Shown here: one piece after another, positions 1-35,013 of the stretch | How the letters are laid out: each line of letters starts with the position of its first letter | Numbering within the stretch: the first letter of the stretch is position 1 | Assembly (NCBI GenBank): GCA_020853795.1 | Contig: JADYYF010000145.1 | Span: forward strand, 1-44,116 | Direction: 5' to 3' | Source of the DNA: Candidatus Zixiibacteriota bacterium | GTDB lineage: Bacteria; Zixibacteria; MSB-5A5; CAIYYT01 | DNA: 44,116 bases | The notes under the pieces: model-generated | Told to the model about the DNA's origin: nothing | Seen by the model: the letters and a program-made list of their open reading frames with translations, nothing else | Databases searched by the model: none | Program-made: the position numbers and the translations under genes

Positions 1-612
1 GGGGTCAATTTCTTTATTCTCGACCAAGGTAACAGCCGCATCATACGGTCGGACTACAATCTGGTGTTCTCGGACGAGCTGCGTTTCAACTACAATCCCG
101 ACCTGCAACTGCTCGGCAAGATCGCCGCGCTGGCGTACTCACGGTTCGGCAACATGTACCTGGTTGATCCGGACAATCTTAAGGTGATTGTTCTGGACAA
201 GGATTACGCGCGCCAGCAGGAGTTGTTTCCGGCCGGCGGGTTTGCCCACTGCGCGTTGATCCGGCTGACGGCGGCCGGCGATGTTTACGTTTACGACCGC
301 GATCGCAACACGATTTACATCTTCGATAGTTTCGGCAATCCGGACGGCAAAATCGCGCTGTCCGGGGTCGGCGAGTTGGGCGACTTCGAGCCGCAATCGG
401 AGCAGTTGATTGCCACCGACAAGGAGCGCAACGAACTGGTAGTGCTGGGGCGAGACGGGAGCGTGATCGCGGCGACGGGCAGTAGCGGCGGCGGCGGGCT
501 GAACTTCGCCAACCCGACGGGACTGGCAGTACGCGCCGACGGGAAGATCTTCGTATGCGACACCGGCAACAATCGCATCGTGATATATGAAATCGCGGCA
601 GCCCTGCCGTGA
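1..612 (+). CDS. NHL/beta-propeller repeat protein, 5' partial
   Basis: The frame is open from base 1, so this is the C-terminal 203 residues of a gene that begins left of the window. Recurring blade-like motifs are visible: FFILDQGNSRIIR near the edge, MYLVDPDNLKVIVLD, VYVYDRDRNTIYIFD and a final blade with IFVCDTGNNRIVIYE. The last is the classic NHL blade ending (D-T-G-N-N-R-I). Such propellers are usually extracytoplasmic and bind proteins or carbohydrates; no catalytic residues are evident and the substrate is unknown. It overlaps the next gene by 26 bases, which implies translational coupling with the large outer-membrane protein downstream. An internal GTG at 64 is unlikely to be the start because propeller sequence continues upstream of it. 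Confidence 0.8.
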   Translation, partial: GVNFFILDQGNSRIIRSDYNLVFSDELRFNYNPDLQLLGKIAALAYSRFGNMYLVDPDNLKVIVLDKDYARQQELFPAGGFAHCALIRLTAAGDVYVYDRDRNTIYIFDSFGNPDGKIALSGVGELGDFEPQSEQLIATDKERNELVVLGRDGSVIAATGSSGGGGLNFANPTGLAVRADGKIFVCDTGNNRIVIYEIAAALP

Positions 613-3600
613 TCTTTACCGAGCCGCGCGGATCGGGCCGGTAATCGGCCTCATCGCCATCTGCGCCTTACCTCTCATTGCTCAAGAACGCTCCGGTTTA
701 GTCGTGGAGCGCAAGATTGCACTCACCGCCGGTAGTTGTTTGGAAATTGGCGCCGGCGAGACGCTGCGGGCCATCATTGCCTGCGGTGACGACACGCTGC
801 GGGTGGGAATTGACTATGTAGTAAGTGATGGTCGTTCATGCCTGCTTGCGGGCAGGACCGGGTGCGACTCGGCGACGGCCGTGCTCGGTCGCGATTACAG
901 TCTGATCGGACGCGCGTTGGCTTTGCGCGAATACGGCACGACCGGTGCGCTGGCGCAAGCGCCATCGCCGCAGACGCCGACCGCGCAAGCGCCGTCACGG
1001 TCGCCGAGCAAGCTGCAGGTCTCCGGCAGCAAGAGCTTTTATGCCGACGTCTCCGATCGCGGGCGCTCGAATCTTTCGCAAGGATTGACCATGAGCGTCA
1101 CGGGCGAAATTGCACCGGGGGTGTTGGTGCGCGGGAGTTTTTCCGACCGCGGCCTGCGCGATAGCCGGCTGGTGACGCGGCGATTTTCGGAGCTGGAGAA
1201 TGTCTACCTGGAGGTGGAATCGCCGCGCCTGCACTCGGTGTTCGGGAGCTTCCCGCTGCGCCGGGACCGGTTTCGATTTCTGACGTTGGAGCGTCGGGTC
1301 CAAGGTTTGGAATTGGAGTACCGGCAACGGCGGGTCAGGACGGAAGCCTCGGTATCGGTGCCACAAGGGAATTTCCTCGACAATCAATTCACGACGGAGG
1401 ACGGCAATTACGGGCCGTACCGCCTCCGCGACCGGAGCGGCAATCCGGGGGTTGCCGTAGTGGAGAACTCGGACGTCGTGTGGCTGAACGGCATCAAGCT
1501 GCAGCGGGGGCGCGACCAGGATTATTACATCGACTATTTGCGCGGCGAGTTGTTTTTCACCGGACGGCGCGTGCTCGATACCGGTGATCGGGTGCGGGTG
1601 GAATTTGAATTTCAGCGGCTTGAATATCGCAAGACGATGTTCACCGGCGGCGCCCAGGTGACGGACGGCGACAGTGCAAACATACTGGCATTCGGCTATG
1701 CCGGTGTTATCGGCGCCCGCAATGACCCGTTGGACTTTGATCTGACCGAGGGCGACATCGCCGCCCTGACTTCGGCCGGTGATGATCCCGCCGCCGCAGT
1801 GGTTTCCGGTGCGACGCTGGTTGGGGCGGGTGCCGGTGATTATCGTGTCGAGACGGACACTGCCGGCGGTGTCCGCTACGAGTATGTCGGGGAGGGCAAC
1901 GGTGATTATCGAGTGGCGTTCAGCGAGACCGAGGGGGGTGACTATCTGTACCTGGGCAGCGGCCGGTACGAGTATGTCGGCGCGGGATTGGGGCGGTACG
2001 CGCCGGTACGTCGGTTGCCGCTGCCGGAGGCGGCACAGGCGGTGGCGACCGCCGGATCAATCGCGCTGACTTCGGACCTAATGTTGGCCGGGGAGTTGGC
2101 ATACTCGAACTATGATCGCAATCGGTTTTCGGCGCGGGATGATCACGATAATGCGCAAGCGGCTGGATTCGGGCAGTTGGAGTATCGGCAGCGGAATCGG
2201 GTCGTGACGGCGCAGATTGCGGCTGAGTATCTTCCGGCGCAGTTCTATCGTTTCAGCCGGATGGATCAGGTTGATGACGATTACGTGTGGCAGCGTTCGT
2301 CGAGCCGTCAACGCGATCGCAATCGCTACGATGCAGCGGTGACCCTGCGGCCGGATTCGACTCTTTCCGGCGAACTGCTGGGTGGAATCACGCGGGAAGG
2401 TGCGGGGTTTCGGTCGGAGCGCGCCGGCCTGCGCTTCAGCAGCAGCGGACGGCTGAACCTGGCAGCGAATGTCGCGATCGACGCAGCGGCAGCGGAAGAA
2501 GATGGGCTCGAGCGCAAGCTGATTCGGATCAAGCCGGATGTGCGCACCATCAAGTTGCCGGTCGTGCTGTTGGCGCGCGGCGAGTATGATCAACAACGGA
2601 GTCAGGCCGACGGCGCCGCGGCCATGACCGTGAGCAAACGCGAGATTGAAGCGGGCGGAGAATATGGCGGTGTGACGCTGACGGGGCGATTGCGCGAAAA
2701 CTGGGAGAATGCGGGGCGCTGGCGGGTGAGCGATTCAAAACGGAGTGTCATCGCTCAGGTCGCGCGGCCTCTGGGCGGGAACAGGCGCATCAATGCCACG
2801 GCGAGCGCCAACCGCTACCGCGGCGGATCTGCACGTCAAGATTATCAAACAGGCATGGTTGATTTGCTGGCGCCAGCGTTGGCGGGCGGGATCGACTTGA
2901 CCGCCAACTATCGATTGAATCGCCGCGGCGTGTCGCAATCGAATCAGACGTACTTGAAGGTGGATGACGGCGAGGGGGATTACGTCCTGATCGACTCGGT
3001 TTACGTTCCGCAGGCACGGGGAGACTACATCCTGGTGACCGAACAAGTCGGTACCGCGAGGCAGAGCATCGACGCGGAGAAACGCTGCGCGCTGGAGGTG
3101 CGGTTGGACAAGTTTCTGCGCAGTGCCGCGACGAGCGGCGTCAGCGTGCGCTACGAGGTCAATTTGCGCGAGATCGGCGCTGCCGACGCCGGTTTTGGCT
3201 GGGACTGGCTCGTGCCGCCGGTGCGGTTGTTTGACAATGCCGAGACGTACTCGCAGCGCAACGACAACTATCGTCTGCAGCGCTATGATCGCGGGATCGG
3301 ACTGCGGACAGAAGTGTCATATACGCGCAATCGCGACGTGAACCGGCTGGATCTGGCGTTCCCGGGACGGCGGGAGAGCGAAGAGGTGCGGGCGGGGTTG
3401 AACCAGGCCATCGGCGAGTGGGGTCTGGTTTCGGCTGCGGCGATTGGACGCAGTCGGACCTGGCGCGAGAGGGGACGACTCAATCTGTTTCTGAGCGAGC
3501 GCCGGATTGAACTGGGAGGAACGCGCTATGCCGGGAAGTTTGAGTATGTGGTGGCCGCGACGTTCGCGCACGAGCACGCCGATTCGTTGGACTTGGAGTC

Positions 3601-3883
3601 GACCAGTTGGCGCATCGCGCCCGGACTGAACTGCAACCTCGGTGCCGCGGGGAGAATTGAAGCGGCAATCTTCGGCCTGCAGGTGAGCGAGAACAACGAT
3701 CGAGTGATCTTGCTGCAGATGGCGGAGGGTTTCCCGACGGGCACGCATTATGGCGGGCGGATCAAGGTTGATATCAAGCTGTCGGAGACCTTTGTGTTCA
3801 AGGTGTTGGGAAATTGCGAGCTGCGCGAGGGGGAGCCAAATCGGTACTTCCTGCGCAGCGAACTGGTGTCGAGGTTTGAATGA
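587..3883 (+). CDS. Large outer-membrane beta-barrel protein of unknown function (1098 aa)
   Basis: ATG at 587 gives a basic N-terminus followed by a hydrophobic stretch ending near residue 32 (LPLIAQ), read as a Sec signal peptide. The mature protein is rich in Arg, Tyr and alternating polar/hydrophobic strands typical of an outer-membrane barrel, for example around residues 150-360 and 490-1098, and it ends in an aromatic-containing strand (LVSRFE). Residues about 415-483 hold a tandem Gly/Tyr repeat (GAGDYRV, RYEYVGEGNGDYRV, YLYLGSGRYEYVG), and weaker copies (GEGDYVLIDS, ARGDYILV) recur near residues 795-820. I do not recognise a named family. It overlaps the preceding propeller gene by 26 bases and the following Omp85 gene by an ATGA, so the three proteins probably act together in envelope assembly or export. 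The function is not assigned. Confidence 0.8.
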   Translation: MKSRQPCRDLYRAARIGPVIGLIAICALPLIAQERSGLVVERKIALTAGSCLEIGAGETLRAIIACGDDTLRVGIDYVVSDGRSCLLAGRTGCDSATAVLGRDYSLIGRALALREYGTTGALAQAPSPQTPTAQAPSRSPSKLQVSGSKSFYADVSDRGRSNLSQGLTMSVTGEIAPGVLVRGSFSDRGLRDSRLVTRRFSELENVYLEVESPRLHSVFGSFPLRRDRFRFLTLERRVQGLELEYRQRRVRTEASVSVPQGNFLDNQFTTEDGNYGPYRLRDRSGNPGVAVVENSDVVWLNGIKLQRGRDQDYYIDYLRGELFFTGRRVLDTGDRVRVEFEFQRLEYRKTMFTGGAQVTDGDSANILAFGYAGVIGARNDPLDFDLTEGDIAALTSAGDDPAAAVVSGATLVGAGAGDYRVETDTAGGVRYEYVGEGNGDYRVAFSETEGGDYLYLGSGRYEYVGAGLGRYAPVRRLPLPEAAQAVATAGSIALTSDLMLAGELAYSNYDRNRFSARDDHDNAQAAGFGQLEYRQRNRVVTAQIAAEYLPAQFYRFSRMDQVDDDYVWQRSSSRQRDRNRYDAAVTLRPDSTLSGELLGGITREGAGFRSERAGLRFSSSGRLNLAANVAIDAAAAEEDGLERKLIRIKPDVRTIKLPVVLLARGEYDQQRSQADGAAAMTVSKREIEAGGEYGGVTLTGRLRENWENAGRWRVSDSKRSVIAQVARPLGGNRRINATASANRYRGGSARQDYQTGMVDLLAPALAGGIDLTANYRLNRRGVSQSNQTYLKVDDGEGDYVLIDSVYVPQARGDYILVTEQVGTARQSIDAEKRCALEVRLDKFLRSAATSGVSVRYEVNLREIGAADAGFGWDWLVPPVRLFDNAETYSQRNDNYRLQRYDRGIGLRTEVSYTRNRDVNRLDLAFPGRRESEEVRAGLNQAIGEWGLVSAAAIGRSRTWRERGRLNLFLSERRIELGGTRYAGKFEYVVAATFAHEHADSLDLESTSWRIAPGLNCNLGAAGRIEAAIFGLQVSENNDRVILLQMAEGFPTGTHYGGRIKVDIKLSETFVFKVLGNCELREGEPNRYFLRSELVSRFE

Positions 3884-5490
3884 GGACGCTCGGGACGATC
3901 GCGCTGGTTTTGGTGTTGACCGCGACCGCGAGCGGGCTGCGGTTCACGGGGAACCACCACTTCGATGCGCGGGCACTCGGGGAGTTGGCGGCGCGCGCGG
4001 CGAATGCAGAAGAACTTCTGCGGGCGATTGCGGCGAACTACACTGAGGCAGGCTTCTTCGAAGCAGAAGTCGAGTTGAGTGCCACAGAAGATAGCATCGT
4101 CGTGATTGACGAAGGCAGGCGCTATCGCCTGAGCGATGCGATCGTCAGCGGAATCGATTCGGCGTATCTGCGATTGGATGGATTCAGCAAGAATGAGCCG
4201 CTGTCGGCCGCGCTCATCGAGAAGATTGGCTTGGGGGCGGTGGCGGCATATGCGGATTCGGGATATCCATTTGCCAGTATTCAACTGGTCGAGATTGCGA
4301 TTGCGCAGGGACGGGCGCAGTTGCGGTTTTCGGCGATAGCCGGTCCGCGGCTGCCGGTCGGCAAGATCACTTTTCCGGGCACAGTGGCGAGCCACCCGAA
4401 CACGTTGTTGCGCCGCGTTCAGTTGAAGCCGGGGGCGCCTTACCGGGAGAGTGCCGTCGAGGCGTCGACCCAGGCTCTGCGTCGACTTGATTTTGTCGCA
4501 AGCGCAAGCGAGCCGCAGGTCGCGCATGATCTGCATGGAAATCGCGCTGATATCGCCTTTCCGGTACGGGAGAGGCGGAATTTTGCGCTGGAAGGAGTTC
4601 TGACGCTCGATCCGGAAAACAAGCCCGCGGGCCAGGCTAACCTGGAAATCCTCAATGTGCTGGGGTATGGTGAGCGGGTCGGCTGGGGGTGGTCGCGCCG
4701 CAATGCCGCATCGCGCGAGTTGGCGCTAACGGCGGGGCTACCGTATGTCGGCGGAACGGAATTTGACGTTGGAGTTGCCGCGGCACAGGTCGATCGCGAC
4801 TCGAACTTCGTAAGCACGCGAGCGGCGCTTCTGATCGACTATCATCTCGGTCTCGACTGGCGGCTTGGCGGCCGCTTGAGCTGGCACAAGATTACGCCGG
4901 ATGAAGGACGAACGGCGCCGTCGGCACGAATTGTGGAGGCGGCTCTGACGACGGCTTTTGACGGCCGCGATCCGGCTGCCGTGCGCGCGAGTGCGGTGCG
5001 CGTCAGCACTGAGTTCGCCACTGCGTATCGCAAGTCGTTTGCGGAAGGTGACGGTGTCAGGACCGGCTATTCGACGCGGTTGGTGATTGACGGGTCGGGC
5101 TGGCTGGCGGTGGGAGGCGGGTTCATGCTGTACCAGCACGGGTTGTTGTTTCAGGTAAAATCCGACTTCACGCCGATTCCACTCGAACAATTTCTTGAAA
5201 TCGGCGGCGTGGCAACGCTGCGGGGGTATCGCGAGAAAGCGTTCCTGGCGCGCGAGGGTGCGGTCGGCGCGACCGAACTGCAGTATCTTGCGGGTGATGA
5301 TGCGATCCTCCGCGTGTTTTGCGACAATGGTTGGCTGCGGACGGCCTCGGACGAGCTGCGACTCACCGGATTCGGCGCGGGGACGTCGCTGCGGACATCG
5401 CTGGGGTGGTTCCGGCTCGATTTCACGTTGGGGGAGTCCAAACAATTTGATAGACTAATGGTTCACTTCGGATTCGATACAGCGTTGTGA
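3880..5490 (+). CDS. POTRA/Omp85-family outer-membrane assembly or translocation protein
   Basis: This 536-residue protein starts at an ATG in an ATGA overlap with the preceding stop. Residues 1-20 are a signal peptide (LVLVLTATASG). Residues about 60-230 contain POTRA-like segments: a DSGYPFASI-like motif around residue 125, and LPVGKITFPG followed by LLRRVQLKPGAPY around 160-190. A C-terminal 16-strand-type barrel follows from about residue 235. TLRGYRE at 446-452 matches the conserved (V/L)RG(Y/F) motif of loop 6 in Omp85 proteins (BamA, TamA, FhaC). Known members fold or translocate outer-membrane and secreted proteins. At 536 residues it is shorter than BamA and closer to TamA-like proteins with few POTRA domains. 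Its neighbour, the 1098-residue barrel, is a plausible client or partner, but that is inference. Confidence 0.85.
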   Translation: MRTLGTIALVLVLTATASGLRFTGNHHFDARALGELAARAANAEELLRAIAANYTEAGFFEAEVELSATEDSIVVIDEGRRYRLSDAIVSGIDSAYLRLDGFSKNEPLSAALIEKIGLGAVAAYADSGYPFASIQLVEIAIAQGRAQLRFSAIAGPRLPVGKITFPGTVASHPNTLLRRVQLKPGAPYRESAVEASTQALRRLDFVASASEPQVAHDLHGNRADIAFPVRERRNFALEGVLTLDPENKPAGQANLEILNVLGYGERVGWGWSRRNAASRELALTAGLPYVGGTEFDVGVAAAQVDRDSNFVSTRAALLIDYHLGLDWRLGGRLSWHKITPDEGRTAPSARIVEAALTTAFDGRDPAAVRASAVRVSTEFATAYRKSFAEGDGVRTGYSTRLVIDGSGWLAVGGGFMLYQHGLLFQVKSDFTPIPLEQFLEIGGVATLRGYREKAFLAREGAVGATELQYLAGDDAILRVFCDNGWLRTASDELRLTGFGAGTSLRTSLGWFRLDFTLGESKQFDRLMVHFGFDTAL

Positions 5491-6332
5491 ACAAGATCAT
5501 TGCCGGAATCAAGCTCATCCGACCACTGAACGGATTGGTCGCTGCATTATCACTGGTGGCTGCCGCGGCTGTAGCGCACGGGCGGTTGGAGCTGCCGCGC
5601 CTCGAAGCTGCCGCGGTGTTTTTCCTGGTATCATTCGGGTACGTGATCAATGATATCTTCGACCAAGGCGCCGATCGCATGAATCGGCCGCAACGCGCAT
5701 TGCCGTCGGGGGCGGTGACGGTGAAGGAAGCGTGGATGATCGCGCAGGGGATGCTCGTTGTTGGGCTCGGAGTTGCGTTGGCCGGCGGCACCAGACTATT
5801 CAGCTATTATGTTGCGGTTGCGCTGGTACTGATGCTTTATGCCAAGGCTCTTTCATCGCGATTGTTGGTGAGCAACATCGTTGTGGCCGCGCTCTGTGCA
5901 TCAGTCTTCCTGTTGCCGACGTGGCAGAAGAACGCCGGTTCGGTTGACTGGTCGGCAGTCCTGGCGGCGATCACGCTGACATTCCTATTCAACTTAATGC
6001 GCGAGATCGTCAAGGATATTGAGGATATTGCCGGCGATCGGGTCCTGAGCCGGACGACGGTGCCAATCAGATTCGGGGCGGGGCGGGCGCGGCTGATCGC
6101 GAGTTTGATCGGATTGCTGGTGGTACTGGCGAGCGTCGCAGCCGATGGCGCTTTGAATCGATCGATAACATATTTGACGATTGTGATCATTGGAGTGGAC
6201 CTGCCGTTGGCGATATTATTTATCCTGTATTTGCGTCGAGACCCAGTTGGTTTTGCTGGGCGGGTATCAGTAGTGCTAAAGGTATTGATGGTGCCGGCAT
6301 TGGTCGCATTGGCGGCGGCCGGTGTTAAATAG
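5487..6332 (+). CDS. UbiA-family prenyltransferase
   Basis: Starts at GTG in a GTGA overlap with the Omp85 gene stop. The 281-residue polytopic protein carries both aspartate-rich motifs of UbiA enzymes: NDIFDQGAD at residues 55-63, followed by RPQRALPSG, and DIEDIAGD at 177-184, followed by RTTVPIRFG. These bind Mg2+ and the prenyl diphosphate. UbiA enzymes transfer a polyprenyl group to aromatic acceptors, heme or geranylgeranylglyceryl phosphate in the membrane. The NDIxDxxxDxxNRPxRxxPSG pattern is reminiscent of geranylgeranylglycerol-phosphate geranylgeranyltransferase-like members, but the acceptor cannot be decided from sequence. Its coupling to envelope genes rather than quinone genes argues mildly against a simple menaquinone role. 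Confidence 0.88.
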   Translation: MNKIIAGIKLIRPLNGLVAALSLVAAAAVAHGRLELPRLEAAAVFFLVSFGYVINDIFDQGADRMNRPQRALPSGAVTVKEAWMIAQGMLVVGLGVALAGGTRLFSYYVAVALVLMLYAKALSSRLLVSNIVVAALCASVFLLPTWQKNAGSVDWSAVLAAITLTFLFNLMREIVKDIEDIAGDRVLSRTTVPIRFGAGRARLIASLIGLLVVLASVAADGALNRSITYLTIVIIGVDLPLAILFILYLRRDPVGFAGRVSVVLKVLMVPALVALAAAGVK

Positions 6333-7221: not shown

Positions 7222-7269
7222 AGTCGTACAAATTGTTCGAAATAAACAGCCAGTTTGGGAGATAAAGAG

Positions 7270-8256
7270 GTGGATCAAGACATCAGACAAATTCAGGCCG
7301 AAGTCGAGCGCAACTACGAGTTCGTGCTTCGGCTCAAGAGTGAGGTCGGACGGGTCATTGTCGGTCAGGAGTATTTGATCGATCGGATGATCATGGCGCT
7401 GCTGGCGGATGGGCATATCCTGGTCGAGGGGGTGCCGGGGTTGGCCAAGACGCTGGCGATTAAGACGCTGTGTCAGGCGATCAAGGCTGATTTCCAGCGG
7501 CTGCAGTTTACGCCCGACTTACTGCCGGCCGATCTGATCGGGACGATGATTTATTCGCAGGCGGACGGCAAATTCTCGGTCAAGAAGGGACCGATCTTCG
7601 CCAACATGATTCTGGCGGATGAAATCAACCGCGCACCGGCAAAGGTGCAGTCGGCGCTCTTGGAGGCGATGCAGGAGCGGCAGGTGACGATCGCCGACAC
7701 CACGCATCCGCTGCCGAAGCCGTTCTTGGTCATGGCGACTCAAAATCCGATCGAGCAGGAGGGGACCTATCCGTTGCCGGAGGCGCAGGTCGACCGGTTC
7801 ATGTTCAAGCTGAAGGTGACCTATCCGTCCAAAGCCGAAGAACTGGAGATTCTCAACCGCATGACGGTGGGCGCGACTTTCGAGGTCAATCCCGTAATCA
7901 GTCCCCAAGATCTGATTTCAGCGCGGTCGGTGATGAACAAGATTTACGTCGACGACAAAGTGAAGGAATACATCGTCAACGTGGTGTTCGCGACGCGGAA
8001 TCCGGAAGCCTACAATCTCAATATCAAGGGGCTGATCGATTACGGCGCCTCGCCGCGCGCGACGATTAATCTGACGCTGGCTTCGAAGGCGCACGCTTTT
8101 ATGCGCGGGCGCGGCTATATCACGCCGGACGACGTGAAGACAATCGGGATGGATGTGTTGCGGCACCGGGTAATCCTGACGTACGAGGCCGAGGCCGAGG
8201 AGGTGGATTCCGAGGCGATCGTGACCAAGATCTTCAACGAGGTTGAGGTACCGTAG
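7270..8256 (+). CDS. MoxR-type AAA+ ATPase
   Basis: The frame opens at TTG 7255, but GTG 7270 is preferred because GGGAG at 7257-7261 sits 8 bases upstream; this gives 328 residues. Visible motifs are a Walker A, EGVPGLAKT (about residues 53-61), a Walker B, LADEINR (about 115-121), the ATQNPIEQEGTYPLPEAQVDRF sensor region split around residues 158-180, and a C-terminal lid with YGASPRATINL. MoxR ATPases are chaperone-like partners of von Willebrand factor A proteins and are encoded with DUF58 and Bat genes in aerotolerance operons. This is the operon's expected ATPase: the DUF58 gene begins 2 bases after its stop, and VWA genes batA and batB follow. ATP hydrolysis and metal binding are inferred from family membership. 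Confidence 0.93.
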   Translation: MDQDIRQIQAEVERNYEFVLRLKSEVGRVIVGQEYLIDRMIMALLADGHILVEGVPGLAKTLAIKTLCQAIKADFQRLQFTPDLLPADLIGTMIYSQADGKFSVKKGPIFANMILADEINRAPAKVQSALLEAMQERQVTIADTTHPLPKPFLVMATQNPIEQEGTYPLPEAQVDRFMFKLKVTYPSKAEELEILNRMTVGATFEVNPVISPQDLISARSVMNKIYVDDKVKEYIVNVVFATRNPEAYNLNIKGLIDYGASPRATINLTLASKAHAFMRGRGYITPDDVKTIGMDVLRHRVILTYEAEAEEVDSEAIVTKIFNEVEVP

Positions 8257-8258
8257 GC

Positions 8259-9137
8259 GTGCTGCCGTCCGAGATTCTCAAGAAGATTCGTCGCATCGAG
8301 ATCACCACGCGCCGGGCCGTCAACGACGTATTTGCGGGGGAATATCATTCGACCTTTCGCGGCCAGGGGATGGAATTCGAGGAGGTGCGCGAGTACCAGC
8401 CGGGCGACGACGTGCGGCTGATCGACTGGAACGTCACGGCGCGCACCGGGGTGCCGTTCATCAAGAAGTACCGCGAAGAGCGGGAGATGTCCGTGATGCT
8501 GCTGGTGGACGCGTCGTCCTCGGGGCAATTCGGGACGCGCACGCAGCGCAAGGACGAGATGGCGGCGGAGATTTGCGGATTGCTGGCGTTCTCCGCGATC
8601 CGGAACAACGACAAAGTCGGGATGATCATCTTCACGGATGAAGTGGAGAAGTACATCGCGCCGCGCAAGGGGCGGGGGCACGTGCTGCGGCTGATACGGG
8701 AAATCCTGTATTTCAAGCCGGTGGGGCGGTCGACGAATATCGGCAACGCACTGGAGTATCTCAACCGCGTGATCAAGCGTAAGTCGGTAGTATTTTTGGT
8801 GAGCGATTTTCTGAGCTCCGGTTACGCCAGCGATCTGATCATTGCCAATCGCAAGCACGACGTGGTGGCGATCAAGATCGGCGACGAACGCGAGGCGCGG
8901 ATGGAGGATTTCGGGCTGATCGACTTCGAGGACGCCGAGACGGGCGAGATCATCGCGATCGACACGTCCGATTCCGATTTTCGCCGCCAGTTTGGATTGC
9001 AGGCGACGGAGTTGTCGACGGAGTTGGAGAAGGCGTTCCGGCGGATGAATATCGACTTCGTGCAGTTGACGACCGGTCACGACTATTTCCTTCCGCTGAC
9101 GAAGTTCTTCAAGATGCGCGAGCGGAGGTTCCGGTAG
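8259..9137 (+). CDS. DUF58 domain protein (VWA-like)
   Basis: GTG at 8259, 2 bases after the moxR stop, gives 292 residues. The DUF58 signature GMEFEEVREYQPGDDVRLID followed by WNVTAR spans residues about 37-62. It is followed by a VWA-like strand with a metal-site motif D84-A-S-S-S88 in MLLVDASSS. There are no transmembrane segments, so this is a cytoplasmic or peripheral DUF58 protein, as expected next to moxR in Bat operons. In known systems the MoxR-DUF58-VWA set works as a chaperone or metal-insertion-like complex; the client here is unknown. Its stop abuts the start of the glycosyltransferase gene at 9138. Confidence 0.92.
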   Translation: MLPSEILKKIRRIEITTRRAVNDVFAGEYHSTFRGQGMEFEEVREYQPGDDVRLIDWNVTARTGVPFIKKYREEREMSVMLLVDASSSGQFGTRTQRKDEMAAEICGLLAFSAIRNNDKVGMIIFTDEVEKYIAPRKGRGHVLRLIREILYFKPVGRSTNIGNALEYLNRVIKRKSVVFLVSDFLSSGYASDLIIANRKHDVVAIKIGDEREARMEDFGLIDFEDAETGEIIAIDTSDSDFRRQFGLQATELSTELEKAFRRMNIDFVQLTTGHDYFLPLTKFFKMRERRFR

Positions 9138-10604
9138 ATGGGTTGGGCGCGCGAACACCGAGGGCTGGTGTGGATACTGGCGGCGCAGGCAGCGGTGGCG
9201 CTGGTGTTTGCGTTCACGCGGGTGGTGGATGCCGACGAAGGGTTTTATTTGGCGGCGGCGCAGCGTGTCAGTGACGGTCTGGTGCCGCACATTGATTTTT
9301 TCTATCCGCAGTCACCGCTGTTTCCGCTGATCTTTGCGCCGCTGGGCGGTTGGGGAATGGAATCGTTGCAGCTGTTGCGCGTGCTGGCGGTCGTAGCGAG
9401 CCTGGGATTGACGGCGTTGTGCTATCGCTTCGTGGCGAAGACGAGCGGAAATCGCGAAGCGGCCGTTGTGACGGCGGCGCTGGTGGCGATCAACGGGCTG
9501 GCGTTGACCTGGCATAGTGTGTTCAAGCCGTATGCGTTTATCGATCTGCTGATCTTTGCGGCGTTTTATCTGACGTTTGTCCGGGGCGATGAGAAACCTG
9601 GATACGGGCGGGTGTTTTGGATTATGGCGCTGACGGCGCTGGCAGCGAATCTGCGGTCAGTGATGCTGGTGCTCTTGCCGGTGTTGCTTTACTACCTGGT
9701 TACGCGCGGGCGAAGGCAGGGTGCAGCGACAGGGAAGTTGACAGTGGCGGCAATTGCCGGAATAGCGCTGCCGACGCTTCCGGCGCTGTGGATCGCCATC
9801 AGCGCACCGACCCAGTTCTTCTTCAACAATCTGGGGTTTCACCTGCAGCGAGAGCCGATCGAGCCGTTTTCGGCGCTCGTACTGCACAAGCTCACCGTGC
9901 TCGGGAAGTTCCTGGCCTTGCCACAAACGATTCTGCTTCTGGGCGCCGCGTTGGCCTCATGGCTGCTGATTCGGCAGAAACTGGAGCAAGCGCCGGACTG
10001 GTTGAAGCCGGCGGGAGTGGTGGCGCTGGTCCTGGCGCTGGTCTATCTCGTGCCGACGCCGGTGCACCTGCAATATTTTCAGCAGACGATCCCCTATTTG
10101 GCGCTCCTGACGGTTCCGTGCGCGGCGTTCGTGCTGCGGGAGGCCAAACTGCGGCTGATTCTGCGATCGGCGGGGATGCTGTATCTGGTCGGATTGTTGC
10201 CGTTTGTGGTGCTGTTTATTGTTTCGCCGCGTGAGCAGGACCAGCGATTTGAATGGACGCAGTTGAAAGCGGTGGTCGGCAAGATTGAGTCGCAGTCGCA
10301 ACCGAATGACACGGTGCTGTCGGAGTGGGCAGGCTATGCGGCGCTGGCGATGCGGCCGCAGTTGCCGGGATCGGAGCATGTCGGATTTCATTTTCCCCTG
10401 AAGATTTCCGCGGCAGAATTTGAACAGATGCACTTGTTGACGACGGCCGCGATTAATTCCGCTTTGGCAGCGCGGCGGCCGGAGTTGGTCATCGTCGACT
10501 ATCAGGTTTATCCGGAATGGCGGGAAGCGCTGGAGGCGAACTACCATGCCGCCGATAGCAGCGAGCGAACTTACATCTATAAGAGAAATGCGGCCAGTTT
10601 ATAG
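9138..10604 (+). CDS. GT-C fold membrane glycosyltransferase (ArnT/PMT-like) inside the Bat operon
   Basis: The ATG immediately follows the DUF58 stop and yields 488 residues with about ten hydrophobic helices. After the first helix there is an acidic motif D31-A-D33-E34-G-F-Y-L followed by FFYPQSPL. This is the typical first-loop D/E catalytic region of GT-C enzymes, which take a polyprenyl-phosphate sugar and glycosylate lipid or protein on the outside of the membrane. A C-terminal soluble segment (residues about 375-488: DTVLSEWAGYAAL, PELVIVDYQVYPEW) resembles the periplasmic domain of such enzymes. It is not a usual Bat component. Its end overlaps the next gene by 17 bases, so it belongs to the transcript. 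The acceptor is unknown. Confidence 0.82.
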   Translation: MGWAREHRGLVWILAAQAAVALVFAFTRVVDADEGFYLAAAQRVSDGLVPHIDFFYPQSPLFPLIFAPLGGWGMESLQLLRVLAVVASLGLTALCYRFVAKTSGNREAAVVTAALVAINGLALTWHSVFKPYAFIDLLIFAAFYLTFVRGDEKPGYGRVFWIMALTALAANLRSVMLVLLPVLLYYLVTRGRRQGAATGKLTVAAIAGIALPTLPALWIAISAPTQFFFNNLGFHLQREPIEPFSALVLHKLTVLGKFLALPQTILLLGAALASWLLIRQKLEQAPDWLKPAGVVALVLALVYLVPTPVHLQYFQQTIPYLALLTVPCAAFVLREAKLRLILRSAGMLYLVGLLPFVVLFIVSPREQDQRFEWTQLKAVVGKIESQSQPNDTVLSEWAGYAALAMRPQLPGSEHVGFHFPLKISAAEFEQMHLLTTAAINSALAARRPELVIVDYQVYPEWREALEANYHAADSSERTYIYKRNAASL

Positions 10605-11538
10605 TCTAATCATCCTTGCCGGGCTGATGCTGTCGGCGCCGGTACGCGGGCAGGACCGGATTACGGTCGAGTCGACGATCGACAAGCAGTCAATTACGAT
10701 CGGCGATCACGTGCGCTACACGGTGAAGATCAGCGCCGATACGTCGTTACTGGTGGACTCATTGGCGGTCGGAACGAACCTGGGGATGTTTGAAATCAAG
10801 GACTACACGCCCCGGAAGAGTGAAGTCAGCGGTGGGATGCGGGTGAGCACCGAGTCGTACGAAATCACGACCTTCACGACCGGCGACTATCAGATTCCGC
10901 CGATTACGATTCGATACCAGGACCGGGCGGGCGAGAGCAAGACGATTGCGACCGACCCGATTGCGATCAAGGTCAATTCGCTGTTGAAGGGAGAAGAGGG
11001 CGAGGACATCAAGCCGCTGCGCGGGCCGAAGGACTACGAAGGCCGGATCCCGCTGTGGGTGCTGATCACGGCGGCGGCGGTGGCGTTGGGGGTGTTGTTG
11101 TTCCTGTACTTTTATCGCCGCGCGGGCAAGCCGATCGATCTGGGGCGGGAGGCGGTGGACAACCGGTTGCCGTGGGAGATCGCGCTGGCGGAATTGCAGG
11201 CGCTGCGCAATTCCGATTTGATCGCGAAGGGGCTGTACAAGCCGTACTACTTGCGGCTGTCGGAGGTGTTTCGCAAGTATCTCGAGCGACGCTATGGAAT
11301 TTCGGCATTGGAGCGAACGACGCACGAGATCATCGGGGAATTCCGGGGGCTGGCGCTGGACAAAGTCGAAGAAGAGGCGATCCACAGGCTACTTGAGGAA
11401 TGCGACTTGGTGAAGTTTGCCAAGTACGATCCGACGCAGGCGGATATTGAACGGCACTACCAGATGGCGTACGATTTTGTGCTGCAGACGCGGTCGTTGC
11501 CGTACACTTCGGCGCCGCAGGCGGAGGCCGCCGGCTGA
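10588..11538 (+). CDS. BatD-like protein 2 (Ig-like ectodomain, one TM, cytoplasmic helical domain)
   Basis: The frame is open from 10546, but ATG 10588 gives a clean signal peptide (MRPVYSLIILAGLMLSAPVRG) and 316 residues, so I prefer it. The ectodomain starts with DRITVESTIDKQSITIGDHV, a BatD-type beta-sandwich, and includes TGDYQIPPITIRY. A transmembrane helix (LWVLITAAAVALGVLLFLYF) follows near residues 167-186. The cytoplasmic tail has YYLRLSEVFRKYLERRYGI and LLEECDLVKFAKY, matching the tail of canonical BatD at 14458. It directly precedes batA with a TGATG stop/start overlap at 11536-11540, implying coupled translation. It probably acts as the periplasmic-sensing or scaffold partner of the VWA proteins; that is inference. 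Confidence 0.82.
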   Translation: MRPVYSLIILAGLMLSAPVRGQDRITVESTIDKQSITIGDHVRYTVKISADTSLLVDSLAVGTNLGMFEIKDYTPRKSEVSGGMRVSTESYEITTFTTGDYQIPPITIRYQDRAGESKTIATDPIAIKVNSLLKGEEGEDIKPLRGPKDYEGRIPLWVLITAAAVALGVLLFLYFYRRAGKPIDLGREAVDNRLPWEIALAELQALRNSDLIAKGLYKPYYLRLSEVFRKYLERRYGISALERTTHEIIGEFRGLALDKVEEEAIHRLLEECDLVKFAKYDPTQADIERHYQMAYDFVLQTRSLPYTSAPQAEAAG

Positions 11539-12524
11539 TGTTCCAGTTTGCGCATCCGCAATTTCTGTGGCTGCTGTTGCTTCTGCCGCTGGTCGCCTAC
11601 TTCATGTTTCGACGGCGGCGGGAGGCAGCGATCAAGTTCTCAGATATCACGCTGCTGCGGAGTATCCGCAAGTCAAACAAGGCGCGCAACCGGCGGATCC
11701 TGCAGGTGCTGCGATTGCTGGTGCTGGCGGCGCTGGTGATCGCGCTGGCACGGCCGCAGTCCGGGAAGAAGACGACCGAGATTACCGCCGAGGGGATCGA
11801 CATCATGCTGGCGCTGGACGTGTCCGGGTCGATGAAGGCGGAGGATTTCAAGCCGCAGAACCGGTTGACGGTGGCCAAGGAAGTGATCAAGGATTTCATC
11901 CGCGGGCGGCAGAACGACCGGGTCGGGCTGGTGGTGTTTGCGCGGCAGTCGTTCACGCAATGTCCGTTGACGCTGGATTACGGTGTACTGGTGAACTTTG
12001 TCGATCAGGTGGACTTCGGGATGGTCGATGACGGCACGGCGATCGGGATGGGCATTGCCAACGCGGTCAACCGGCTGCGCGATTCCAAGGCGAAGTCGCG
12101 GATCATCATCCTGCTGACCGATGGTGTCAACAATGCGGGAGAGATCGATCCCTTGACGGCGGCCGATATCGCCAAGTCGCTGGGGATTCGCATTTATACG
12201 ATCGGTGCCGGACGGCCAGGGAAGGCGCTGGTGCCGATTGAAGACCCGATCTTCGGGAAGCGGTACGTGCAGATCGATCACGAACTGGACGAGAAGCAGT
12301 TGACGAAGGTCGCGGAGACCACTGGCGGCAAGTACTTCCAGGCGCGCTCGGAAGACATGCTCAAGAACATCTATCAGCAGATTTCCGAACTGGAGAAGAC
12401 GAAGTTCAAGGTGAAGGAGTATCTGCAGTTCGACCAGTTCTTCCCGTATGTCCTGCTGATCGCGGGCGTGCTGCTGGGCTTGGAATTATTGCTGCGCGAG
12501 ACAGTGTTCCGGAGACTGCCGTAA
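11538..12524 (+). CDS. batA: BatA, membrane-anchored VWA-domain aerotolerance protein
   Basis: 328 residues from ATG 11538 (TGATG overlap). Two N-terminal hydrophobic helices (residues about 8-25 and 52-70) precede a von Willebrand factor A domain with an intact MIDAS: LALDVSGSMK (D-x-S-x-S, from about residue 91) and LLTDGVNNAGE (about 191-201). The conserved Bat phrases RQSFTQCPLTLDYGVL and IGAGRPGK follow. A C-terminal helix near residues 298-318 (FPYVLLIAGVLLGLELLL) gives the second anchor. BatA/BatB are partners of MoxR and BatC-E; in Bacteroides fragilis the operon supports aerotolerance. The ligand of the MIDAS metal site is unknown. The neighbouring gene order matches the family. Confidence 0.93.
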   Translation: MFQFAHPQFLWLLLLLPLVAYFMFRRRREAAIKFSDITLLRSIRKSNKARNRRILQVLRLLVLAALVIALARPQSGKKTTEITAEGIDIMLALDVSGSMKAEDFKPQNRLTVAKEVIKDFIRGRQNDRVGLVVFARQSFTQCPLTLDYGVLVNFVDQVDFGMVDDGTAIGMGIANAVNRLRDSKAKSRIIILLTDGVNNAGEIDPLTAADIAKSLGIRIYTIGAGRPGKALVPIEDPIFGKRYVQIDHELDEKQLTKVAETTGGKYFQARSEDMLKNIYQQISELEKTKFKVKEYLQFDQFFPYVLLIAGVLLGLELLLRETVFRRLP

Positions 12525-29394: not shown

Positions 29395-32300
29395 ATGTTA
29401 CAAAGCTCTATCGTGAAATCGTTGTTGGTGGCTGTCGTCCTGATTTTGTCATTGACGGTAGTCATGGCAGCGGCGCCGGTGAAGCCGCCAGTGAACCAGA
29501 CGGAGCCGGCGGGTCAGCTTTCCGGGAAGGCGGCAATTCCCACTGCAACAATGAAGTTGCAGGCGGGCGCGGCTGGTGTGGCCGATGACGGACCGGGGAT
29601 TCCGGCAAACATACCGGCAATGCCAACGAAGCAGTTTCGCCCGGCGACGGCGGCAGCCACCGCTATCTATCATGGTGAGTTTGGCGGGGCACCGTATGCC
29701 AAGGTCGATGCCGGGGCAGTAGCGGCATTTAAAGCCGAGGCGGCATTGATCGGGGCCGGGGGCTACACATCAGATACCGAATATAGAGGCTTGGATGCCT
29801 GTCTTATATCGTTTGACAACGGCTCGACCTATGCGACCGACCGCGGCGGATGTATCTACATCCAGACCGTAGTTACCGGTCTGCAGGCGGGTGATATCGT
29901 GTATGTCGACAACAATTACTTCTATGACGATGGAACGGGATATTACTCGTACTGGGATCAAGCGCCCTACTGGGTGCTGATTAATCCTTACACGCACAAC
30001 TCGACCGCAACGATCAACAACTGGTTGATCTACTTTGAGGCGGATGGTCTCGGTGGTTACACCATGGTGATCGGCTCGGGCGAGTACAACCTGGCGTTGA
30101 ACAATGACGACCTCACGACAGTAATCGGAGACAAGTTCCGGTTGACGCGCCAAGTGCGGGTGTACCAGGGCGCCACACTGGTGAGCCCGGCAACAAGTTC
30201 GCGAGGATATACCTACTCGACAGCGGGTATCACGGGCGGCACGGAGACTGACGCAAGTTACCTCGACACGCCGGACCTCGATTTGGTGGGAGCCAGCCCG
30301 GTCTGGGTGGATGACGACTGGGCCGGTTCGGACAATGGCGATATTGTCGGCGGGCACATTTACGGTGAGGATGCCTTCGACAATATCCAACAAGGTGTCG
30401 ACGGCAGCGTGGCCGGCGGTGTGGTTAATGTACTTGCCGGCGGTTATGTCGAGAACATCGTCGTCGGCAACTCAGTACACGTCAGCGGCGCCGGTCAGGC
30501 GGTGGTGACAGTGTATCCGGCGCTATCGGCGCCGAATCCGGTGGGAGGCGGTTCGATGCCACCGGGGGCGAGCCACATGATGCTGATCGCGGCGAATGAT
30601 GTCGAGCTATCGGGTATGACGCTGGACGGCGACAATCCAGCCTTGACCAGCGGAATCGTAGTCGGCGGCGCCGATCTGGATGCGCGGAACGGGATTATCA
30701 CCGATCATCCCAGCGGCGTCTATAACGGGCTGCTGATTCACGATTGCACGGTGAAGAACATCTACCTGCGCGGAATTTACGCCTCATCGGGCGGGACGTT
30801 CAATTTCCATCACAACACGGTGGACAATGTCAACGCCGAGTACGCCTCGATCGGCATGTTTAACTATGGCGGCGCGGGGACGTTCGCTTACAATACCGTA
30901 TCGAACTGCAACGACGCGATCTCGTCGAATCATTCGCGAGGCTGCCAGTTCCTCAACAACATTGTGACGGGGTGCGGCAGTGGTGTTCACACCGACAACG
31001 CCGGCGACGGTGGCGGTGTGGCCGATCTGATCGACGGCAATCAGATCTCGAATAGCGCACTCTACGGCTACGGCATCTTCACGTTCGTGCCGTACATCTT
31101 GCCGGTGGTGCAGAACAACACAATCACTAATGTGGATGTGGGTTTGACGGCGGCGGGATCGTATGCGGCGGTAACTCCGCAGTTTCTGAACAACACGGTT
31201 GACGGTCAGAACAAGACCAACAGCACCGGTGTGTATATCACGACCGAGATCTGGGGTTATACTTCCGGCAACGTTACTGTGTTGATGCAGAATAACTCGA
31301 TCACGAACAACACGGATGCGTTCTATGTCGTGGCGGAGGCGGGCTTCACAAACGCCTTGACGGTTTTCGACAACGAAATTCGAAATAATTCGAATTCCAG
31401 TGTGTATGCCGCGACGGGCACCATGGGCGCGGGGACGTTCAATTTGAATTTCTCCGGGAACTGGTGGGGAGTCACCGACCCGACGGCGGTGGCGACACCA
31501 ATTTACGCGGTGGCTGATTATACGCCGTGGCTGGGTGGCGGCACGGCGACGACGCCGGGTTTTGCCGGCGATTTCTCGCTGCTGTGGGTTGACGACGACT
31601 CGCCGCAAACCGGTTCGGTGAATCGGGTTCAGGAAGCTGTCAATCTGGTATCGGGGAGCACGATCAATCTGGCGCCGGGGACCTACCCGGGGCAGGTCGT
31701 GATTTCCGGTTTCACTGATCTCGATCTGATCGGCGCGGGGATCGGCGTGAGCACGATCCAGGCGACGGCGTCGATGGCGCATTCATTCAACAGCGGCTCG
31801 AACAACAACTTCGCGGTGGTATCTGTGGAGAGCTCGACCGGTGTTGACATTTCCGACCTGACCATCGACGGCCTGGGACTGGGCAACAGCAATTATCGGT
31901 TTGTCGGCGCGGCGTACTTCAACGCCGGCGGCAGCATGACCGATGTCGAGGTCAAGGATTGCCGCAACACGCCGTTGGACGGCGGCCAGCACGGCATCGG
32001 CATCTACGCGCTGATCCTGGATGCGGTCGATCGGACGCTGGATCTGACCGATTGTATCGTGAGCGGTTTCCAGAAGGGCGGCATCGTGTTCATCGGCGCC
32101 GACCTGACGGCCACGGCGAACGGCTGTACGGTCACAGGCGGCGGTCCGATGCAATTGGGCTGGCCGGCGCAGAACGGTATCCAGTTCAGCACGGTGGCAG
32201 GCGGCTCGGCGATCGGGAATACGATCAACTACATTTCCTACGTGCCGGCGACCTGGGCTGCGACCGGATTCTTGATCTATGGGCCGGAGACGCTGACGAT

Positions 32301-35013
32301 CGACGGCAACAACCTGAACGAATGCCAGTTCGGCGCGTACATGATCGACGCCGCCGGCAGTTTTTCAGGCAATGCATTTACGGCGACACCGGCGGGTACC
32401 GGGATGCAGGAGTATTACGGCCTCTATGTCTTGTCGCAAGTCGCGGCGAAAGGGAAGCAGCGCCAGGCCCAGCCGTACGACGCTGAGCTGATCGCAGGGA
32501 TCAAGAGCGATTTGGAGCGGCAGGCACTGGCGCCGAATGCGCTGGTAGTCACGGCTGACGACAATATCATGGACGGCGGGAACGGCACGTCATCGCAGGG
32601 AATCGTGGCGTATTCGTACACGGCGGGGAACCTGCAGTTCTCGGCGGACAACAACCGCCTGACGAACTTCGAATGGGGTGCCGGAGTGTATGCCAATCCA
32701 TCGCCGGTTACGGCGGTCTTCACAAACAGCGAATTCCTGTACAACAATGTGGGATTCGAGAGCTACGGCGGCACCGTCGATGTGCAGTTCAACATCTTCC
32801 AGAACACGACAAATGCCACGGACGATTTGGCCGGCAACACCTACAATCAGAATTGCTGGCATGACTGGTCGGGAGTCGGGCCGTATGCGATCGGCGGCGG
32901 CGGTGGCAACACCGATGCCAATCCGGTAGCCGACTGCGGTCTGGACATGACGCCGAACAGCATCGTGTACGATTGCTCGGGCGATTTCACGTTTGACGTC
33001 GGTATCGGCAGTGCCGTGACGGCGTTGGATGCCGCCAACATCTGGCTGGAGTATCCGGCTGAGCTGACGGTAACGAACGTGACCGGGGCGAGCGGCAATT
33101 ACTTTGTCGCGTACACGCAATCGACGAACATACTGAACACGCGGGACACGCTGAAGGTGAATCTGGGTGTGCTCACAGGTGTGGAAGACGGCCCGGCGCC
33201 GCTGTTTACGGTGGCGATGAACGGTAGCGTCTCGTGCCTGGCGGGCGACATCATGATGATCTATCGCGATCTGCGCGACAGCACGAACTCGCAGATCATC
33301 GTGCCGCCGGCCACCGCGATCGACTTCCAGTCGAACTGCGCTGATCCGGACGTGGTGGTCAACTCGCCGGCTGCGGGCGGATTCTATAATATCGCGCCGG
33401 TGCTGAGTCTGACGGCCACCGACGACTGCGATTTGAACGCGCTTTACTATCAGGTGGACGGTTGCACGCCGGGCGGCTGGCTGCCGATTGCCACCGGACT
33501 GAGCGGCACGATTTACAATAATCCGACCTGGTCATTGTCGGGCGCGGAATTTGCAGCCTTGACGGAGGCGAGCCACTGTATTCGCTTCAAAGTGACCGAC
33601 GATTTCGGCCGCGCTAATGCCGATTCGTGCAGCTATACCTGGTGCTTCACCAAGGACGTGACGGCACCGACGCCGCCAATCAACCTGGTGGCGCAGCCGG
33701 GTCACAACAAGGTACAACTGAGCTGGATCAATTCCAGTTCACCGGATGCGATCGGCGTACAGATTCAGCGGATCCCGTGGACGGACTATCCGAACTACGG
33801 CAGTATGCCGACGCCGACCGCGGCGCCGGCCTATCCGGCCAACCAGTTGACCGGCACGACGATTTTAAGCGCGGGCGCGACGCCCAGCACGCCGGGCAAC
33901 CACACGGATGTTATGGGTCTGAGCAATGCGACGCGTGACATCTATTACTTCGGGGCGTTCGCCTATGACGCCGCGGGCAATTACTCCGTGGCGGCACCGT
34001 CGGCGCAGGCGCGGTCGACTTCATACTGGCTGGGCGATCTGGCCAATGAAGCGGTAACGCTGGGCGCGTTCGATGGACTGGTGTACTTTGGCGACCTCGT
34101 GCATTTTTCGTCGACGTACGGGCTGAATGAAGGGGATGGCGGGTATATCAGCCACGCCGACTTCGGGCCGACACACAACAACAGCCCGAAGGGGATTCCG
34201 ATGCCGGACGACAAGGTGGAATTCGAAGACCTGGCGATCTTCGCGATCAACTTTGACGATGTCGTGCCGATGGCGGCGAAGTCTTCGCCGCATCTGACCG
34301 GTGTGGCACCGCTGCCCTACACGGGGATGACGTTGGAGTCGCGGGCTACCACGGACGGGTACCTGGTTGACCTCGTTTTGGCCAACGGCAACAACGACGC
34401 CAAGTCGCTGTTGGCGGAGATCACCTATGATCGAGTCAACCTGACATTGGTAAGTGTACAGCCGGCCAGTGATATTGTCGCAGGCGGTCAGCCGGTGTTC
34501 TTCAAGACGCTGGATAGTGAGAACGGTATTTCGGTCTCGGTAGCCGCGCTGGGCAACGGCGTGAGTTTCCGCGGCTCGGGTGTGATTGCGACGCTGCAGT
34601 TCCAGCAGCGGACGGCGCAGCCGGCCAAGGTCGTGCTGGGGCGGCAAGAAATCCGCGACAACGAGAACCGATCGCTGTTGCCGGCGGTGTTGCCGACTGA
34701 GGAGCCGGTGACAATTGCGGCGGAAGCAGCGGCGGGCACCTGTGTCGTCTACCAGAACTCACCGAACCCATTCAATCCGGACACAAAGATCGCGTACTCG
34801 CTACCGAAGGCGAGCGCGGTCTCGGTGCGGATTTACAATGTGATGGGCCAGGCGGTGCGGACGCTGGTTGACGGCGCGCAGACCGCGGGATATCATGAAG
34901 TGATTTGGAACGGCCGCGATGAGAGCGGGAATCTCGCTGCGTCCGGAGTGTACTTCTATCGGTTCGAGACGGACGGTTTTGCCAAGACCGTCAAGATGAC
35001 ACTGATGAAGTAG
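29395..35013 (+). CDS. Giant secreted beta-helix protein with FlgD-like C-terminal sorting domain (1872 aa)
   Basis: ATG 29395 is supported by GGGAGGG upstream. Residues 1-26 are a signal peptide. Residues about 60-300 form an uncharacterised N-terminal beta domain. Two right-handed parallel beta-helix regions follow, each introduced by a WVDDD motif (residues about 303 and 730) and full of repeats such as NNTITNVDVG, VQNN and GNTINYISYV, like NosD/PbH1 proteins. From about 1185 a cohesin-like segment appears, then Ig/FN3-like domains (FN3 at about 1421-1530), a dockerin-like Ca2+ region (YWLGDLANE ... DGLVYFGDLVHF ... DDKVEFEDLAIF, 1544-1615), a cohesin-like domain (1640-1770), and a final NSPNPFNPDTKIAYSLPKAS to FAKTVKMTLMK domain (1787-1872). 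That last domain is the FlgD-like/type IX-style sorting domain. It is probably a surface adhesin or polysaccharide-binding protein; no catalytic site is assigned. Confidence 0.88.
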   Translation: MLQSSIVKSLLVAVVLILSLTVVMAAAPVKPPVNQTEPAGQLSGKAAIPTATMKLQAGAAGVADDGPGIPANIPAMPTKQFRPATAAATAIYHGEFGGAPYAKVDAGAVAAFKAEAALIGAGGYTSDTEYRGLDACLISFDNGSTYATDRGGCIYIQTVVTGLQAGDIVYVDNNYFYDDGTGYYSYWDQAPYWVLINPYTHNSTATINNWLIYFEADGLGGYTMVIGSGEYNLALNNDDLTTVIGDKFRLTRQVRVYQGATLVSPATSSRGYTYSTAGITGGTETDASYLDTPDLDLVGASPVWVDDDWAGSDNGDIVGGHIYGEDAFDNIQQGVDGSVAGGVVNVLAGGYVENIVVGNSVHVSGAGQAVVTVYPALSAPNPVGGGSMPPGASHMMLIAANDVELSGMTLDGDNPALTSGIVVGGADLDARNGIITDHPSGVYNGLLIHDCTVKNIYLRGIYASSGGTFNFHHNTVDNVNAEYASIGMFNYGGAGTFAYNTVSNCNDAISSNHSRGCQFLNNIVTGCGSGVHTDNAGDGGGVADLIDGNQISNSALYGYGIFTFVPYILPVVQNNTITNVDVGLTAAGSYAAVTPQFLNNTVDGQNKTNSTGVYITTEIWGYTSGNVTVLMQNNSITNNTDAFYVVAEAGFTNALTVFDNEIRNNSNSSVYAATGTMGAGTFNLNFSGNWWGVTDPTAVATPIYAVADYTPWLGGGTATTPGFAGDFSLLWVDDDSPQTGSVNRVQEAVNLVSGSTINLAPGTYPGQVVISGFTDLDLIGAGIGVSTIQATASMAHSFNSGSNNNFAVVSVESSTGVDISDLTIDGLGLGNSNYRFVGAAYFNAGGSMTDVEVKDCRNTPLDGGQHGIGIYALILDAVDRTLDLTDCIVSGFQKGGIVFIGADLTATANGCTVTGGGPMQLGWPAQNGIQFSTVAGGSAIGNTINYISYVPATWAATGFLIYGPETLTIDGNNLNECQFGAYMIDAAGSFSGNAFTATPAGTGMQEYYGLYVLSQVAAKGKQRQAQPYDAELIAGIKSDLERQALAPNALVVTADDNIMDGGNGTSSQGIVAYSYTAGNLQFSADNNRLTNFEWGAGVYANPSPVTAVFTNSEFLYNNVGFESYGGTVDVQFNIFQNTTNATDDLAGNTYNQNCWHDWSGVGPYAIGGGGGNTDANPVADCGLDMTPNSIVYDCSGDFTFDVGIGSAVTALDAANIWLEYPAELTVTNVTGASGNYFVAYTQSTNILNTRDTLKVNLGVLTGVEDGPAPLFTVAMNGSVSCLAGDIMMIYRDLRDSTNSQIIVPPATAIDFQSNCADPDVVVNSPAAGGFYNIAPVLSLTATDDCDLNALYYQVDGCTPGGWLPIATGLSGTIYNNPTWSLSGAEFAALTEASHCIRFKVTDDFGRANADSCSYTWCFTKDVTAPTPPINLVAQPGHNKVQLSWINSSSPDAIGVQIQRIPWTDYPNYGSMPTPTAAPAYPANQLTGTTILSAGATPSTPGNHTDVMGLSNATRDIYYFGAFAYDAAGNYSVAAPSAQARSTSYWLGDLANEAVTLGAFDGLVYFGDLVHFSSTYGLNEGDGGYISHADFGPTHNNSPKGIPMPDDKVEFEDLAIFAINFDDVVPMAAKSSPHLTGVAPLPYTGMTLESRATTDGYLVDLVLANGNNDAKSLLAEITYDRVNLTLVSVQPASDIVAGGQPVFFKTLDSENGISVSVAALGNGVSFRGSGVIATLQFQQRTAQPAKVVLGRQEIRDNENRSLLPAVLPTEEPVTIAAEAAAGTCVVYQNSPNPFNPDTKIAYSLPKASAVSVRIYNVMGQAVRTLVDGAQTAGYHEVIWNGRDESGNLAASGVYFYRFETDGFAKTVKMTLMK

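Follow-up and report, generated by a model that had tools for sequence, protein, structure and literature searches.

Among described systems, the closest to the locus analyzed here is SprA, which reviews from 2020 and 2022 present as the T9SS translocon and the largest known single-chain outer-membrane barrel (PMC7463736, PMC9127263). In the account of the second review, inserts between strands 7-8 and 11-12 form a cap that seals the extracellular end of the barrel (PMC9127263). A 2024 paper likewise describes the pore as capped, with PorV bound at its lateral opening and the cap contacting the cargo CTD (PMC10994853). As to distribution, a 2016 survey places the T9SS in Bacteroidetes only (PMC4793230), and a 2025 study calls SprA FCB-specific (PMC12611786). 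Elsewhere, three barrels of D. radiodurans are predicted to have 38 strands (PMC9388160), and it is by predicted strand number alone that we compare them with the family described below.

The window, meaning the whole stretch of DNA that was analyzed, comprises 44,116 nucleotides from a Candidatus Zixiibacteriota bacterium. Near its start lies a gene for a protein that is likely a giant barrel of the SprA type. A preliminary description, made from the sequence alone, had called this product a large outer-membrane barrel of an uncharacterized family, and our searches bear that out. The protein matches zero Pfam families at E≤1 and just two NCBIfam models: that of SprA, far below its cut-off (residues 288-354; 16.7 bits, E 7.8e-4, cut-off 200 bits), and, weakly, a phage distal-tail model (residues 262-343; E 0.031). 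With the protein as query, a PDB sequence search found nothing; the family profile returned one chance-level match (E 0.69), and neither query identified a relative. A genome scan with the single protein as query likewise gave zero confirmed matches. Two alignments were drawn from the 70 long proteins listed, one joining the window's protein to 56 others and one joining it to 38. The layout of the gene is as follows:

587-3883 (+): uninterrupted open reading frame, 1098 aa; likely half-length, SprA-like giant barrel protein
587-685 (+), residues 1-33: hydrophobic N terminus resembling a signal peptide, as read from the sequence; low pLDDT
701-916 (+), residues 39-110: N-terminal domain with a degenerate SprA-like LNG..DY..DY..G.I.F element, from hhalign; low model confidence
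1016-1363 (+), residues 144-259: barrel strands 1-7, from the model and strand count
1364-1624 (+), residues 260-346: insert 1, between strands 7 and 8; SprA-domain homologue, from hhalign and fold match
1730-2029 (+), residues 382-481: insert 2, between strands 9 and 10, bearing the Gly/Tyr module; predicted models
1823-2005 (+), residues 413-473: the Gly/Tyr repeat proper, from shuffle test and alignments
2030-3880 (+), residues 482-1098: remaining barrel, strands 10-38, with a near-C-terminal Phe; model and strand count
2960-3031 (+), residues 792-815: Gly/Tyr hairpin 2, in the loop between strands 25 and 26; alignments and model

An AlphaFold2 model of the full-length protein, built with 57 sequences as input, reached a pLDDT of 81.3 and a pTM of 0.72, with pLDDT below 50 at residues 1-38, 81-85, 106-139 and 190-198. 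About 38 core strands, two of them short, can be counted in this model between residues 144 and 1097, after three of 41 (262-269, 335-342 and 805-812) were removed by hand as lying within inserts; if strand 805-812 were retained, all loops after it would change sides. The predicted odd-to-even loops average 18.7 residues (n = 19), compared with 4.2 for the opposite-side turns (n = 18). All long loops, among them the two inserts of 87 and 100 residues, fall on one side of the model, and every opposite-side connection has 13 residues or fewer. In barrels of this kind the side with long loops usually faces the cell exterior, and we predict the same orientation here. Residue F1097 is invariant among the 57 aligned family proteins. 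The Gly/Tyr module had been placed between an N-terminal part and the barrel, with structure prediction in the full-length context proposed as a check; in the resulting model it is instead an insert inside the predicted barrel, at strands 9-10, following about nine strands.

Structural comparisons with the full-length model favored SprA. SprA entries ranked 1, 2, 6 and 35 in Foldseek (8gl8_A, E 3.8e-8), and in VIA-align 8gl6_A was superimposed over 687 residues (Z 16.4, rmsd 8.6), the longest alignment of the best 50 rows. The Foldseek global TM to SprA is 0.27-0.29, however, with BtuB, Mtr and LptD scoring almost equally, and in VIA-align a FimD usher has a higher Z of 18.2, but over 330 residues only. 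Because the global TM is low and other barrels also match, the fold evidence is not decisive by itself. FimD-type ushers have 24 strands and TonB-dependent receptors 22. The ushers resemble our protein in combining a large barrel with an inserted domain, but Pfam finds no usher family in it at E≤1, and we rejected usher identity, for which the fold match was the sole indication. TonB-dependent receptors (BtuB, Cir) share the barrel fold (Foldseek E about 4e-7); their plug and receptor domains (PF07715, PF00593), in contrast, are absent at Pfam E≤1, and the protein is not among its own genome's PF00593 matches. TonB receptor identity was rejected on the lack of a Pfam domain at that threshold.

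Profile comparison ties the protein to SprA more specifically. When the family profile was aligned with hhalign to a profile of 15 SprA proteins, insert 1 matched at residues 273-374 with a probability of 97.3% (E 2e-11), and the N-terminal domain aligned to the same SprA element, columns 594-669, at 95.5%; the stretch between them reached 8.7% only. The protein thus contains the inserted domain found at about positions 600-666 of the SprA model. At E≤0.01 that model (TIGR04189) matches 20 of 39 family members, the best at 1.4e-11. By the whole-protein score of TIGR04189 given above, the protein nevertheless falls outside SprA/Sov, and it does so by length as well, since it has 1098 residues where about 2000-2400 are expected. 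The genome carries one SprA over the cut-off, a protein of 2003 aa on contig C137; the window's gene is distinct from it and was therefore rejected as the genome's SprA. In sum, the protein resembles SprA/Sov (6H3I, 6H3J, 8GL6, 8GL8) in its predicted giant barrel, for which we count about 38 strands against the 36 reported for SprA, in an inserted domain that is homologous, in having its large inserts all on one predicted side, and in occurring in the same genomes. The differences are roughly half the length, a score far under the SprA cut-off, a separate gene and a second insert that by our count lies at strands 9-10 and carries the Gly/Tyr repeat; a review puts that of SprA at 11-12.

The likeness could reside in insert 1 alone, with an otherwise plain barrel sharing a surface domain that SprA and phage neck and tail proteins also have. 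In structural superpositions of insert 1, phage neck and tail proteins give Z scores of 8-9, up to 9.1, slightly above the 7.3 obtained on SprA 6h3i_A (75 residues, 2.4 Å, 19% identity). In line with this, DUF2460 of Pfam matches 9 of 39 members, with E values down to 6.2e-8, and the NCBIfam phage distal-tail model 10 of 39. Such a coincidence would leave unexplained why the position of the insert and the number of strands come close to those reported for SprA, and why SprA is the best whole-chain match, and we think a plain barrel quite unlikely. When residues 256-496 were folded alone (pLDDT 92.3), SprA was again the best Foldseek row, if a weak one (E 0.038). Read most simply, insert 1 would correspond to the first cap insert of SprA, at strands 7-8, and the Gly/Tyr module would stand in for the second. 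As a separate observation, the fold of insert 1 (window positions about 1352-1621, residues about 256-345) is common to phage neck and tail proteins and to spore-appendage proteins.

The Gly/Tyr tandem repeat noticed in the preliminary description is real. Units of the form G-x-G-x-Y or Y-x-G-x-G start at residues 415, 427, 433, 437, 455, 457, 463 and 467, the GAGDY at residue 415 beginning at base 1829. These are eight units in a 66-residue stretch, while 5000 shuffles of the protein averaged 1.03, with a maximum of 4 and none reaching 8; the motif set was picked post hoc, once the sequence had been seen. Odd positions hold 22 of the 24 Gly and Tyr residues between 413 and 471, as would be the case for side chains on a single face of beta strands. 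Further GDY units, announced near residues 795-820, are present as well, at 795-799 and 810-814 in hairpin 2. Both blocks are well kept, within the class (41 members aligned) and across many phyla (57 proteins aligned). Among the latter 57, which include the window's protein, G417 is found in 56, Y419 in 55, G435 in 51, F445 in 57, G451 and Y453 in 56 each, G465 in 52, and G469 and Y471 in 53 each; in hairpin 2, G797 is found in 57 and G812 in 56. The class consensus is approximately VGxGxGDY..D..G..YxYVGxxxGDYxVxFSxVGxGxGDYxYxGxGxYxYVGxGxGxYLPV for the module and V.xGxGDYRxExGxYxPDPxGDYI for hairpin 2.

No known domain accounts for the module with confidence in Pfam, in the PDB profile search or among the fold rows, a check named beforehand. 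In Pfam nothing matched at E≤0.01, the best being 0.019 for a family matched by 2 of 26 members, and the PDB profile search gave nothing below E 0.33. None of the fold rows listed for residues 256-496 is confined to the module; insert 1 dominates these rows, which barely test the parts beyond it. With the module as sole query against 19 genomes, all matches at E≤0.01 were open reading frames or frame pieces of the half-size barrel family, and of the four weaker rows (E 0.16-0.48; G011, G013 and two in G007), one was hairpin 2 of the family protein in G007, while the other three were frames without relation to it. A pattern scan found no repeat units in the genome's own SprA.

The module had been suggested to be a plug, a ligand-binding module or a strand-exchange module. 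Strand exchange finds no support. A role in closing the barrel is plausible, with the module acting as a surface cap rather than as a periplasmic plug, because the long loops all lie on one predicted side and the adjoining insert is a homologue of an SprA domain. If the module bound a ligand, the protein would be a receptor of very large size, for uptake or for binding, whose extracellular site is the Gly/Tyr module. The module's predicted extracellular position would suit that role, as would the weak OAA-lectin matches of 3 of the 26 members, none better than E 0.028, and Tyr-rich surfaces often bind sugars. We nonetheless consider a receptor very unlikely: no TonB plug or receptor domain appears at Pfam E≤1, the neighboring insert is SprA-like, and conservation of the repeat across phyla would be atypical of a variable ligand site. 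That the Gly/Tyr module forms part of a surface cap is the best-supported interpretation.

We next consider how widely this protein occurs. In its class, 56 of 58 genomes gave a match, and in four of these (G011, G015, G042, G047) it lies inside SprA only, so that 52 of 58, the window's own genome included, carry the half-size family, mostly as one open reading frame of about 1100 aa unless cut by a contig end. A scan of the collection yielded at least 496 confirmed stretches, of which 80 loci were retained for study; the matches listed come from Zixibacteria, KSB1, Calditrichota, Ignavibacteria, Gemmatimonadota, Latescibacteria, Cloacimonadota, Neomarinimicrobiota and others, and thus from many FCB phyla. 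Our literature search, with most subscription papers outside its scope, found no publication describing another barrel like SprA, and a half-size SprA relative with a Gly/Tyr surface module, as the model predicts, would be new.

The family goes with T9SS genomes, yet it is dispensable for the T9SS. We drew 148 genomes evenly from a single phylum, that of locus L096 and presumably Bacteroidota. At E≤1e-20 the family was found in 94 (in two of them, G109 and G164, over about 240 positions only). All 94 also have SprA, in 23 genomes SprA occurs by itself, and 31 lack both (Fisher p 1.4e-17, uncorrected for kinship), and the family occurs in 0 of the 31 genomes that lack SprA. In this phylum, then, the half-size barrel was found solely together with SprA. 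Among 34 further family genomes, hand-chosen from the 80 retained loci, SprA exceeded the cut-off in 31, was partial in one and had no match in two. Conversely, the family is missing from 23 of 117 sampled SprA genomes, and the six class genomes without it (of 58) all have SprA over the cut-off, which means that the T9SS does not need the half-size barrel.

The genes around the barrel gene are the following:

1-612 (+): 3' end of a gene for an NHL beta-propeller, which begins on another contig of this genome, C91
3880-5490 (+): short Omp85 protein, 536 aa, with two POTRA stretches and LRGY; its start overlaps the stop of the barrel gene
5487-6332 (+): UbiA-family prenyltransferase, next in the conserved gene string

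Contig C91, which overlaps the window start by 127 exact bases, also holds two related proteins, an M6-like protein and a PorV-family gene. The order in relatives is PorV family, M6-like, two weakly DUF5683-like proteins, NHL, barrel, Omp85 and UbiA. At loci of the same class, Omp85 lies downstream in 37 of 38 testable cases and NHL upstream in 36 of 38, and at 33 of 40 an M6-like gene precedes the barrel by no more than four genes. A T9SS sorting domain is present on 34 of the 36 M6-like proteins scanned (35 of 36 frames from relatives, an 81-aa piece being omitted, plus that of the window's own genome), and the upstream frame belongs to the PorV family in all seven cases scanned (six relatives with enough sequence and the own genome). 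The own genome has 9 PorV-family and 42 sorting-domain matches, all over the cut-off, and with its SprA it looks like a T9SS organism.

Outside the class these associations thin out. At loci L066-L145, a few of which share contigs with L026-L065, NHL was found at 31 of 76 testable and Omp85 at 28 of 68; L116 (Latescibacterota) has PorU and the PorV family upstream of the barrel, both over the cut-off. The sampled phylum contributed 19 loci, those of 20 stretches that yielded the barrel frame (L193 excluded); NHL precedes the barrel at 3 of them, and Omp85 is next to it at none. NHL at those three aside, no constant partner was apparent at these 19 loci or in Ignavibacteria, and no constant T9SS neighbor was seen outside the class and L116. 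The M6-like model also matches neighbors in L094, L100, L106 and L117, and downstream in L103.

We consider it somewhat probable that the protein is a giant barrel of the SprA type whose inserts form a surface cap, and that this barrel is inserted by Omp85 and passes or holds the surface protein of its operon. The outer-membrane barrel, with some 38 strands in about half the length of SprA, would carry its inserts at strands 7-8 and 9-10 folded on the cell surface, where they would cap a wide pore much as the 7-8 and 11-12 inserts of SprA do. Rigid beta structure faced with Gly and Tyr would arise from the G-x-G-x-G-x-Y arcs, and hairpin 2, 16 strands further round, could meet the module across the pore mouth. 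The neighboring Omp85 may insert the barrel, which in turn may pass or hold a surface protein encoded in the same operon (PorV-family carrier, T9SS-tagged M6-like protein, NHL propeller).

A translocon role for the half-size barrel is plausible and is one of two live options. The other keeps the same structure and assigns a different function: the SprA-like barrel would be a capped scaffold or an outer-membrane biogenesis factor acting with Omp85 and NHL, exporting no cargo. NHL, barrel and Omp85 are the association that extends past the class, and the Omp85 is an extra one, given that a full BamA is encoded on contig C146 (504 bits). Co-occurrence with SprA in the 148 genomes and the T9SS neighbors within the class suggest secretion instead, and we regard a role without export as rather unlikely. 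The reading of a capped SprA-type barrel can be taken further, to an FCB-wide second family of half-size translocons beside SprA, each with dedicated T9SS-type cargo, a Gly/Tyr cap and its own Omp85; this we offer only as a tentative possibility. If the proposal is right, a compact second SprA-type barrel spread across FCB phyla would be an overlooked component of secretion or of the envelope, and it would provide a smaller model for how such pores become capped and opened.

The same BamA on C146 led us to reject the adjacent Omp85 as the sole BamA of the genome. A second long Omp85 (C137, 6271-8061; 272.9 bits to the BamA model) is encoded on the contig that carries SprA. On C91, the PorV-family gene (locus L179, 5223-7658, minus strand) lies in an 811-aa frame that is cut by the contig end and much exceeds the PorV match, possibly a fusion. 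Downstream of UbiA, window positions 7255-12524 (+) hold a MoxR-type ATPase, recognized by eye, and further genes whose order is kept in several relatives. Finally, an 1872-aa open reading frame at 29395-35013 (+) has a type A sorting domain of the T9SS at its C terminus (37.6 bits) and is a probable T9SS cargo.
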